Notes under the pieces: generated by a model
Seen by the model: the letters and a program-made list of their open reading frames with translations, nothing else
The model's database searches: none
Told to the model about the DNA's origin: nothing
From: a virus
Strand: one strand, 5' to 3'
IMG/VR virus record: IMGVR_UViG_3300005264_000045
Coordinates: 11,438 to 44,142 of that record
Length of the DNA: 32,705 nt
Position numbers and translations under genes: made by a program
Part shown: piece after piece, positions 2,488 to 32,630 of the stretch
Numbering within the stretch: the stretch's first letter is position 1
Layout: every line of letters begins with the position of its first letter

Positions 2488-4104
2488 TTAGAATCTATTA
2501 CGCCTTGACCTTCTTTGCATCGAGAAAGCATTACGTTCTCTGGCACCTCTATGCGCAGCTTCAACTCCTGTGAGCCAGGTTCTACGGGACACTGGATCAT
2601 TCCAGATCTTTATCTTCTCAACTTCCTCAGCCCTTCTCTTTGCCTCGATAACAATCTGAGTGTCAAAGTCCAGACGGTCAACCACCCATCTAACAGCACC
2701 AGCCAGACTGTCCAATCTGTCATCATGCCTAAGACAGCCTCTATCTCTTGTGAGCATTGAGAGCTGATGCACAAACCTGTATGTACTTTTAAGTTCAACA
2801 GGGTAGATCTCAACAGAGTTTGCATCTTCCTCAAGAGCCTGTCCAGAAATAACGAGCCTGTGTGAAGAGAGAAGAGGTTCAAGCGTGTCAATAATCCTGA
2901 GTTCCTTCTGTCCTGTCTCATACACTTCCTCCAGCTGTACAGGCCATTCATGCTTCTGGAACAAAGGTTTCATCATGTTAGCATGAGCACCGTTACCAAA
3001 GTTCTTTTCGATGCACACAATATTAGCTTTATGCTCCTTTGCGACCTTCACGAGCTTCACTAAATTCTTCTCCTCATACCCACCTGGCACTCCACTGACG
3101 GCCGATATATAAACGTAAGCACCTATGAGCTTAATAACAGCGTAAGCCATCTCATCGGCGTTCTGGCCCCCTCCAGCGGGGTCTATGTACATCACCGTCT
3201 GCTCGAACGGCCTCATCTCATACTCATTCGGAACTGCTCGATATACTTTATACTTCATCCCAAATGAGACGCTCCTGTACATGTTTCTGGGGTCATTAGA
3301 CCAAACGGGTAGTACGGGTCCAACATCTGCGTTAAAGTCCGCTACGATCAAATTTTCGAGCTTTAAGGGGTATCTTTCAGAATCGGCAATGGAGGTATTG
3401 AGCATGTACTGCAGCATGAACTTTGCCTTTCCGAGAGAGATCTCTTTCTCCAGCAGCCTTTCTTCCGGGAACATCTCAGGGCAAGTAGGTTTCCCTGAGC
3501 TACCATCTATGCCACCGCCTTGTCTTAATGAAGGATCTAAGATCATATCAGCTTTAAGCATAGGTGCAAGATTATCAGCATAAGCGAGTTCTTCTTCTTC
3601 TGTAGGATATCTACCAGACCATACTCTAATATGGTACCCACGAGCTGGTAGATTGTTATAGATACTTTCAGTACTCTGTGGTGTTCCTAAGTAGATTATA
3701 TCTCCCTCAACACATATAGTTTCAAACTCTCTGGTTAAGTTCTCAAGTATCTCCCTTGTTATAACTGTTCTTGAGTTCTTCATACTCTCAACGTCATCGC
3801 TAATTAAGACATCAGCACGACTACCCTGAGCACTTGAATCTACACCCATGCACTTAATACTTGGAGACTTCTCTACACCTTTGAACAACCAATGCACATC
3901 ATACCCTTCTATGGACTCTCTGTCTCCAGCATTTTTATCTGCCCTTAACATCCAAAGAAAATCAAGACCATTTAAGATCTGAATAATGAAAGAAGCAATT
4001 TCTTTAGACATCTTGCCACCAGCAGAGAAGATAAGAACACGAATAGTAGGGTTGTGTATTAATCGAAAGACAGCGTAAATAGCCGTAAGTGTCGTCTTAC
4101 TTTG
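2488..4104 (-). CDS. terL: Large terminase subunit, 3' exon (packaging ATPase and nuclease)
   Basis: The large terminase powers DNA packaging through the portal and cuts the concatemer. This exon encodes residues 76-613 of a spliced protein (T7 gp19 has 586). Colinearity with gp19 is clear: QSKTT completes the Walker A loop, then SRADVLISDDVE (Walker B, about residues 170-181), IIYLGTPQS (coupling motif), YIDPAGGGQNADEMAY (first nuclease Asp), CIEKNFGNGAH and CLRHDDRLDSLAGAV (C-terminal nuclease Asp pair). An unspliced frame could start at TTG 4116, but this lies in the intron and lacks a ribosome site, so the reading starts at the splice junction. Exon length 1617 nt plus 225 nt is divisible by three. 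Confidence 0.93.
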   Translation of the reverse strand, partial: QSKTTLTAIYAVFRLIHNPTIRVLIFSAGGKMSKEIASFIIQILNGLDFLWMLRADKNAGDRESIEGYDVHWLFKGVEKSPSIKCMGVDSSAQGSRADVLISDDVESMKNSRTVITREILENLTREFETICVEGDIIYLGTPQSTESIYNNLPARGYHIRVWSGRYPTEEEELAYADNLAPMLKADMILDPSLRQGGGIDGSSGKPTCPEMFPEERLLEKEISLGKAKFMLQYMLNTSIADSERYPLKLENLIVADFNADVGPVLPVWSNDPRNMYRSVSFGMKYKVYRAVPNEYEMRPFEQTVMYIDPAGGGQNADEMAYAVIKLIGAYVYISAVSGVPGGYEEKNLVKLVKVAKEHKANIVCIEKNFGNGAHANMMKPLFQKHEWPVQLEEVYETGQKELRIIDTLEPLLSSHRLVISGQALEEDANSVEIYPVELKSTYRFVHQLSMLTRDRGCLRHDDRLDSLAGAVRWVVDRLDFDTQIVIEAKRRAEEVEKIKIWNDPVSRRTWLTGVEAAHRGARERNAFSMQRRSRRNRF

Positions 4105-4851
4105 CATTGTATTCAAGAAGGTTCGTTAAGCCTTCCCGGTTCTCTTATGAACTCCTGCATGTTTCCATGCAGATTAGACTATCTCTTACATCATATAGAT
4201 GTTCACATGTTTCCAAGCACTTGCTTGTACTTCCTTACGGAATAGTCGTTGCACTAAAACTTATAATCGCAAGATATATGTTTCCATGTAGCATGCCTTC
4301 TAATGTTTAGATAGGTGTTGCGAGACATAGAGACAAGGTGTTTAATATGTTTCCAGTTTCTACCTTTCTCTAACTGTCTACAGACTTCTCTAACCTCTTC
4401 TTCAGTTGTTGTACAGCCTCCATGCTCAAGCCCAACTCTTTTAGTTATCAGGCCAGTATCCCAAGCATGACGCATATTCTCTAAATGAGTACACCATTCT
4501 AAATTAGATACATTATTATTATTCTTGATACCATCCTTGTGATTGACATAAGGTCTTTCTGGATCTCTTGGTAGAAACGCCAATGCAACAAGTCTATGCA
4601 CTGCGTGGTACTTCTGGTTAATGCAGACAAGATGGTAACCATTCTTTATTCTACCTTTAAGAATGTGCCCCGTTGTCTCATTAACAACCACACCATTAGT
4701 ATCAACTGTATATTCATGCCCACTTCTGTTAGTCACTTCTATCTTTGCTTTTTCGTACATTATAACCCTCCTTATAGGATAGTTTTAGTTTTAGTCAGGA
4801 TCGTCCATGTAGGATGTTCCCTGTTTGAATGTGATTACGTAGCCAGTATTA
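4105..4851 (-). other. Group I intron in large terminase gene
   Basis: A 747-nt insertion interrupts terL after GGT (Gly75), exactly in the Walker A loop. The 5' exon ends in T and the intron ends in G, as group I splicing requires. Near the 3' end are an R-like element GTGCAACGACTATTCC (4239-4254) and an S-like element AAGAGATAGTC (4177-4187), whose GACTAT and ATAGTC pair as P7. A perfect hairpin CTGCATG-GAAA-CATGCAG (4155-4172) follows, fitting a P9-type stem. It carries an HNH endonuclease gene (4254-4760). Splicing restores a T7-colinear protein. Confidence 0.88.
4254..4760 (-). CDS. HNH homing endonuclease in terL intron
   Basis: This 168-residue protein has the layout of intron-encoded HNH enzymes such as I-HmuI relatives: an N-terminal NUMOD4-like strand region (about 13-50), the HNH core (H55-R56, VNHKDG 72-77, NNN 80-83, NLEW 86-89), and a C-terminal helical DNA-binding part (about 116-165). 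It would cut intron-less terL alleles near the insertion site and so drive intron spread. It has its own AAGGAGG ribosome site. Its stop touches the intron's R core element, so translation through the end could compete with folding of the ribozyme. A paralogue lies in the portal intron. Confidence 0.88.
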   Translation of the reverse strand: MYEKAKIEVTNRSGHEYTVDTNGVVVNETTGHILKGRIKNGYHLVCINQKYHAVHRLVALAFLPRDPERPYVNHKDGIKNNNNVSNLEWCTHLENMRHAWDTGLITKRVGLEHGGCTTTEEEVREVCRQLEKGRNWKHIKHLVSMSRNTYLNIRRHATWKHISCDYKF

Positions 4852-5076
4852 ACCACGTTGTGCTTGAATCATTCTGAACTTAGGGCCAGCAAATAACCAC
4901 TTACAAATATCTGCTTGTACTCTGTTTAAATCAGGGTTACCAACTATCAAGATGTTTATACAAGTCTGAGCAAAGAGGAGGAAGCCTTCCGAACTATAAG
5001 GGAAAGCTTCCTGAACCTCTGCTAAGGCTTCACGCATCTCAAGTTGTTTTTCTTTAGACATTTCACGTTTAGCCAT
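4852..5076 (-). CDS. terL: Large terminase subunit, 5' exon
   Basis: Encodes residues 1-75 of the packaging ATPase, from ATG 5076 behind AGGAGTGAT. It matches the N-terminus of T7 gp19 (adenine-binding region and lead-in to the P-loop): RVQADICKWL corresponds to QIDMAKVLAN, and FRMIQAQRG to FILQAFRG. The next base triplet in genomic DNA is TAA (4849-4851), so unspliced mRNA would give only a 75-residue stub ending halfway through the ATP-binding loop. It joins 4104 after intron removal. Confidence 0.88.
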
Positions 5077-20997: not shown

Positions 20998-21736
20998 CAT
21001 CATGTTGTTGTATGAGTCGTTAGTTCATACGCTGTATGTTACCATACAGATCAGACTATATCTTCCCCGCAATGGGGCTACCTGTTTCGGAACACTTGTT
21101 CCTACTCCTTTCGGATAGTCGTTACACACCAATATTAACTTAATGTAGATGTAAGCCAAGACCAATTTTTACCTTGTCTCACTGACTTTATAGAAGCTAT
21201 ACCAACTGACAGTTTTAATCTATCTCTTATCTGTCTTGCAGTTAATTTTGTATTTCTTAGCTTCCAGATATTTATAACATCCTCTTCTCTTAACTTAGCT
21301 ATGGGATTCTTTTCCCCTTTGTTAGTTTTAAGATGAGTTCTGTACGCATGCAATACGTTCATACTTGCACTGCACCATTCAAGGTTATCAGCTGCATTGT
21401 TATATCTATCACCATCTATATGATTGACTTGAGTATAGTTATGCGGGTTGTCTAAGAAGTGCTCTGCAACAAGTCTGTGCAAAGCATAGAACTTATCAAG
21501 ATGAATCTTGACATACCTATTCTTCTTTGTTATTGACGTACCACGTAATTGTACACCTGTTGTCTCGTTTGTTACAATACCAAGTGTATCTATACTATAT
21601 TCACATTTCAAATCTTTATTAAGTTTTATCTTTCTGTAGAGCATTAATGCCTCCGTAGTTAAAGATTAATTGTTGCTCGGTATTGTCCCATAGGGAGTTC
21701 CACCGAATTAAGGTAGTTTATAGAGGGCAACATTCT
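20998..21736 (-). other. Group I intron in portal gene
   Basis: A 739-nt insertion splits the portal codon for Val between GT (exon, ending in T) and G (exon 2), and the intron's last base is G. Core elements match the terminase intron: R-like GTGTAACGACTATCC (21113-21127), S-like AAGATATAGTC (21054-21064) with GACTAT/ATAGTC as P7, and a perfect CTGTATG-GTAA-CATACAG hairpin (21032-21049). It carries an HNH gene (21135-21644). Exons of 1118 and 463 nt sum to 527 codons including the stop, near the 536 residues of T7 gp8. Confidence 0.87.
21135..21644 (-). CDS. HNH homing endonuclease in portal intron
   Basis: 169 residues with the same plan as the terminase-intron enzyme: NUMOD4-like region (about 14-50), HNH core (LHR 55-57, VNHIDG 73-78, YNN 81-83, NLEW 87-90), a conserved GEKNP-type NUMOD segment and a C-terminal helix-turn-helix-like region (TARQIRDRLKLS, about 134-145). 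The two share layout and many short words but differ along most of their length, so they are not a recent duplication. Its ribosome site is only a weak GGAGG, placed as GGAGGCATTA. Confidence 0.88.
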   Translation of the reverse strand: MLYRKIKLNKDLKCEYSIDTLGIVTNETTGVQLRGTSITKKNRYVKIHLDKFYALHRLVAEHFLDNPHNYTQVNHIDGDRYNNAADNLEWCSASMNVLHAYRTHLKTNKGEKNPIAKLREEDVINIWKLRNTKLTARQIRDRLKLSVGIASIKSVRQGKNWSWLTSTLS

Positions 21737-31969: not shown

Positions 31970-32626
31970 TTAATGTGTTTCTTCCCAAGAGTCTCCTATG
32001 CTGTACTCTCCAGCCGTAGGGCAACGTAAGCACAGCTCCTCTCCAGCCTTAGTAAGTGCCTTGCAATAGGCATCTCCAAGTACATGATAACTTCTCTGCA
32101 ATACAAGGTATTTAGAATCATCCTCTGTTATATGATCTTTGATAACAGGTGCAGACCAGATACCTCTTTCATCTTTATGCTGTCTCTTCTGCTCTGTCTT
32201 CCATTCACTTTCTTTTATCTTATACTGCATGGTAGATACTTCATCAGCATCAATCTCGAACTGACCTTCATCATGAATATGGGCAACAATAGGCATCTCA
32301 GATACATCATCAAGGTACCCTTGTTTAACCAGCATGTCCTCAGCTATGCAGTGTGCATGCTTCATCACTAAAGATCCAGTCATCTGAAGAAGAACATTCA
32401 ATGCAGTATTCAATGCAAGCTTTCCATTCTTAACTCTGATTCTACCCCATCTCCCATCAACAGCTAACAGGTACCCAAACTTCTCTCCAGCAGTCTGTAC
32501 CCTATCAAGAAGATTATCAAGATCCGGCAATGATTGTTTGAACCGGGCAACACACTCACCCATTTCATGTTCTGACATCCCTGTTTGTCTGGCAAGATTA
32601 GGGATACCTGACCCATACAAGAACAT
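31970..32626 (-). pseudogene. DNA polymerase family A, C-terminal part (frame broken)
   Basis: The C-terminal portion of a T7 gp5-type polymerase, 218 residues. FLYGSG continues the end of the O-helix region and VAHIHDEGQF carries the motif C His-Asp-Glu; the fingers and palm regions between (RWGRIRVKNGKLALNTALN) also match T7. Its frame is shifted from the fragment at 32631-32705 by a -29 base difference, and the intervening motif B is missing. An apparent ATG at 32626 is internal, with no ribosome site. Called a pseudogene fragment only because of the frame break; the sequence could be in error. Confidence 0.75.
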
Positions 32627-32630
32627 TGCT

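Follow-up and report, generated by a model that had tools for sequence, protein, structure and literature searches.

The large terminase (TerL) gene of this T7-like phage is interrupted within its Walker A loop by an insertion that is very probably an IA2-type group I intron, mobile and self-splicing. The window, i.e. the whole stretch of DNA analysed, comprises 32,705 nucleotides (bases 11438-44142 of a 44,142-base virus record) and carries a T7-like gene set; its features are listed in Table 1. The coordinates, the arithmetic of 225 + 747 + 1617, TAA as the first intron codon and the terminal G reported in the first-pass annotation were all correct on recheck. The exons had also been proposed to rejoin into a 613-residue T7-type TerL, and the joined protein indeed matches PF22530 and the solved T7-type terminases, a sequence profile retrieving 8dgc (E 6e-117) and also 4bij (DNA maturase B). 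Judged by PF22530 and by alignment to these two structures, the spliced chain holds Walker A, Walker B and an RNase H-like nuclease domain. The same alignment bears out the placement of the insertion between Gly75 and Gln76 and positions the cut three codons 5' of the Walker A lysine (RGQSKTT aligned with RGIGKS).

Table 1. Features of the interrupted TerL gene, of its intron and of the other introns of this phage, with the three insertion sites found in TerL genes.
Feature	Position	Strand	Description and basis
TerL exon 1	4852..5076	-	225 nt, residues 1-75, ends ...CAACGUGGU (Arg74-Gly75); aligned to intronless TerL
Group I intron in TerL	4105..4851	-	747 nt, subgroup IA2 by P7.1-GUA-P7.2; starts UAA, ends G
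TerL exon 2	2488..4104	-	1617 nt including stop, residues 76-613, starts CAAAGUAAGACGACA (QSKTT); PF22530
Internal guide sequence GCUACG	4838..4843	-	pairs with exon CGUGGU (4857-4852), giving P1 ending in U.G
P3 5' strand UCACAU	4829..4834	-	hand-built helices and covariation
P4, P5, P6 5' strand (CAGG..CCUG, UCC..GGA, ACUAAAACU)	4787..4823	-	hand-built helices and covariation
Intron ORF, HNH_3 homing endonuclease	4254..4760	-	168 aa, looped out of P6; PF13392 E 2e-11; phrog_59 E 8.8e-39; 1u3e E 1.5e-9
P6 3' strand AGUUUUAGU	4253..4261	-	overlaps ORF stop; hand-built helices and covariation
P7 5' strand GACUAU, guanosine-binding helix	4242..4247	-	hand-built helices and covariation
P3 3' strand AUGUGA	4203..4208	-	hand-built helices and covariation
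P7 3' strand AUAGUC	4177..4182	-	hand-built helices, covariation and Rfam alignment
P9 hairpin CUGCAUG-GAAA-CAUGCAG	4155..4172	-	Rfam alignment, hand-built helices and covariation
Second IA2-like intron, portal gene after RDAERV	20998..21736	-	739 nt; RF00028 31.3 bits; helices; junction by eye
Portal-intron HNH endonuclease ORF	21135..21644	-	169 aa
Third intron, DNA polymerase gene at KFIY/MFLYG	L030 107-809 (G000:C1:107-809)	-	703 nt, 136-aa HNH ORF; outside the window, at contig start
TerL site	75/76		Walker A
TerL site	179/180		Walker B, ADD/IES
TerL site	386/387		nuclease motif, DPAG/GG

The junction is uninterrupted in ten intronless relatives from IMG/VR (66-76% identical), and four other IMG/VR contigs are broken at precisely 75/76 by a related intron, with insertions of 748 (L014), 748 (L016), 749 (L019) and 756 nt (L021). 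The first intron codon is TAA or TAG in 5/5 introns at this site, and all of them end in G. As TAA directly follows Gly75 in the window, an unspliced message stops after 75 residues, yielding the short stub that had been predicted. A boundary shifted by one base would still code for Gly at the junction; the position given here is fixed by the U.G pair closing P1 and by the terminal G of the intron.

Twelve helices were built manually in the window copy and in its relatives (P1, P3, P4, P5, P6, P7, P7.1, P7.2, P8, P9, P9.1 and P9.2), and the conserved core P3-P9 with the guanosine-binding helix P7 was found in the window intron. The P7 pairing (GACUAU/AUAGUC) and the GAAA-capped hairpin that had been noticed at first pass are both present, the latter being P9. 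Over the five introns at 75/76, pairing was retained in 99.0% of cells, as compared with 35-39% when the partners were slid, and both sides had changed in 12 of 63 pairs, which none of 500 shuffles equalled, three of the five sequences being nearly identical so that effectively three lineages were compared. Furthermore, P1 covaries across the exon-intron border, being CGUGGU/GCUACG in the window and CGAGGU/GCUUCG in L021. Counting against the group I reading are one mismatch in P1 of L016 and a short P10 of two pairs, judged by eye. P7.1 and P7.2 joined by GUA define subgroup IA2 (PMC3428280), and the window intron has this link (GGAA-GUA-CAAGC), which is retained in the other introns at 75/76 as well as in the DNA polymerase intron. 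The portal and DNA polymerase introns of the same phage form similar helices from different sequences.

A search with the Rfam group I model had been suggested as a check. At the gathering score (50 bits) no match was found; in E-value mode RF00028 aligned to the right place and strand (4320-4155, minus; E 2.3e-5), but its 29.7 bits lie under the gathering score of 50, a curated cut-off that is a detection threshold and no biological criterion. The low score is probably due to the 168-aa ORF separating P4-P6 from P7-P9; in the same genes, introns whose core is uninterrupted reach 56-67 bits. Since the known T4 nrdB intron was likewise not reported by the Rfam search at E<=0.01, the absence of a hit to the group I model, previously named as a refutation, is a weak one. 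In blastn, 596 phage records matched the 3' 150 nt of the intron (E<=1e-3), T4 nrdB and staphylococcal lysK among them. The original assignment to group I is thus upheld by a weak but correctly placed RF00028 match, a full IA2 fold with compensatory changes and the matches of the 3' core.

The ORF within the intron, to which the first-pass annotation made no reference, is open in 5/5 introns at 75/76. The closest solved structure by sequence is I-HmuI, the HNH endonuclease of an SPO1 intron (1u3e), which matches residues 12-105; the alignment, however, covers the N-terminal two thirds only, and the target gene differs. As the stop codon of the HNH ORF falls within the 3' strand of P6, translation of the endonuclease and folding of the core would be expected to compete. 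No dN/dS ratio was obtained for the ORF between the window and the other copies, synonymous sites being saturated.

Three other explanations of the insertion were weighed. TerL might be a split gene, in which the 75-residue stub and a protein of 539 residues are translated separately and then associate, without splicing. An in-frame ATG does stand just before CAA at the intron end (4107-4105) in both the window and L021, but the start codon is unconserved, the triplet being ACG in L014, L016 and L019; moreover, the cut would fall within one loop, three codons before the Walker A lysine, and a full ribozyme fold is conserved. Such an arrangement is highly improbable. Even less credible is a dead or dying intron, i.e. 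a copy that no longer splices in a contig derived from a defective virus. The sequence is a metagenome contig, and the DNA polymerase copy at the contig end lacks 732 nt, yet the window copy has all helices intact, its HNH ORF is intact and both TerL exons are open and conserved. A translational-bypass element or an intein is the least probable of all: an insertion of 747 nt that adopts a complete group I fold resembles no bypass element known to us. Mycobacteriophage TerL inteins are mobile self-splicing elements that sit in the Walker A motif (PMC5050341), but they are unrelated elements that act by protein splicing and are placed between Lys and Thr or one residue off, and the insertion described here is no intein because it opens with a stop codon and its HNH ORF both starts and terminates independently.

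Under the preferred reading, splicing by a group I intron and cutting by its endonuclease are suggested by the anatomy of the element, its conservation and precedent. In the RNA the guide GCUACG would pair with exon CGUGGU, a guanosine bound by P7 would attack after the U, and the freed exon 1 would then attack after the last G of the intron, giving the joined message for the 613-residue TerL. The HNH protein translated from the P6-loop ORF would nick or cut the Walker A sequence where it is uninterrupted, in a co-infecting phage that has no intron, and repair off the intron-bearing copy would insert the intron together with a little flanking exon.

Movement of this kind is visible among relatives. 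Among L014, L016 and L019 the intron is conserved at 99.6-99.9% identity, whereas the exons are only 72-79% (exon 1) and 72-74% (exon 2) identical. Furthermore, L019 carries the intron and L091 and L092, which are nearly the same phage, are without it; this plus/minus pair consists of metagenome contigs of a relative, distinct from the phage of the window. When the flanks of L019 were joined in a script and aligned to L091 and L092 (3,304 columns), two substitutions in 3.3 kb separated L019 from L092 and three separated it from L091. The two substitutions shared by both comparisons are found at -23 and -21 relative to the insertion; apart from substitutions, the sequences differ by a few short indels (at +1362 and near +2400). 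A substitution pair so close to the insertion is the pattern that co-conversion is predicted to leave, the count being small. Hence the same TerL site is filled or empty among relatives, with transfer between diverged hosts, and sequence comparison gives good support to intron mobility and to recent transfer between viruses in these relatives. Homing at an invariant site, as put forward initially, is supported by the HNH ORF, the empty-site relatives, the contrast between intron and exon identity and the near-isogenic pair.

Large insertions in 91 loci with TerL, some of which duplicate one contig, were found at only the three junctions of Table 1, the boundaries in L103, L110, L114 and L115 being approximate. 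Ranked by local conservation among 612 junctions, 75/76 is 10th, 179/180 is 71st and 386/387 is 12th; the probability that three random junctions are equally conserved is about 7e-4. That group I introns favour conserved sites has been established before (PMC2814812). Two TerL sites are occupied at once in L014 and L019. Walker B introns (ADD/IES) were located in L014 (2251-3042), where the endonuclease ORF is phrog_2081 without a Pfam match, and in L111 (2895-3726). The intron at site 386 of L019 (2410-3156) has a GIY-YIG ORF that seemingly ends within exon 2 (stop in GGAGGTAA). The TerL introns of KIL3 and DSS3_VP1 were rejected as Walker A cases, as by eye they are inserted much further downstream in the gene. 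In T7-like phages, the three catalytic motifs of the packaging motor (Walker A, Walker B and the nuclease motif) are probably separate homing sites; their introns carry at least three kinds of endonuclease and sometimes occur two per gene (L014, L019), and the one in Walker A is probably still spreading among phages.

The portal and DNA polymerase introns of this phage were absent from the first-pass annotation. Pectobacterium phage Gaspode (L041) apparently has an intron at the same portal junction. Two matches in the DNA polymerase gene were considered as two introns, but both fall in one 703-nt intron. The ends of the virus record overlap in this gene (window 32626-32627 versus L030 105-836), and the 732 nt lacking from the contig-end copy comprise the intron together with 27 nt from exon 1 and 2 nt from exon 2; the flanks of 79 and 104 nt are otherwise identical. 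The gap reflects either a chimeric assembly or a real defective variant. At the other end of the window, positions 1-1330, about 1.3 kb, are without an ORF of 60 aa and contain many short CTTAG-type repeats, e.g. CTTAGGTGTCCTTAG, and are possibly a terminal or regulatory region.

The T4 nrdB, td and sunY introns are group IA2 phage introns. The nrdB intron is 86% identical to the window intron over 50 nt of the 3' core and likewise has its ORF in a core loop, but the host gene in the window is a packaging motor and the endonuclease differs. The T7-like phage Pf-WMP3 has an IA2 intron in its DNA polymerase gene that is spliced in vivo and starts with UAA (PMC3428280). This intron, with I-PfoP3I, and those of phi-I and W31 share with the window intron the T7-like phage background, the P7.1-GUA-P7.2 link, an HNH ORF, the UAA start and insertion in a conserved functional segment (PMC3428280); they differ in that the gene is DNA polymerase instead of terminase and the ORF spans other core elements. 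In Lelliottia phage phD2B (L005) a T7-like TerL is split by an intron with a homing endonuclease, K1E being cited as the only similar case (PMC4246154); that intron, in contrast to the one described here, follows residue 386 in the nuclease motif (DPAG/GG) and has a contiguous core scoring 58 bits in Rfam. Group I introns also occur in TerL of Bastillevirinae, some genes having two or three, and that of SIOphi self-splices in vitro (PMC11878797), although the hosts of these introns are SPO1-like myophages; the SIOphi TerL insertion site was not found within the sequence stretch examined. TerL introns, T7-like or otherwise, are therefore already known, and the present one is another case, for which the signs of recent movement among relatives are unusually clean.

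The intron illustrates clearly how a homing intron can occupy the loop of an essential motor that is under the strongest constraint. L019 and L091/L092 form a natural plus/minus pair among the relatives, in which homing and the cost of splicing are directly measurable in a small T7-like genome. Furthermore, phage group I introns with an ORF inserted into the core escape detection at the curated Rfam cut-off, and counts of such introns in viral metagenomes are thus probably too low.
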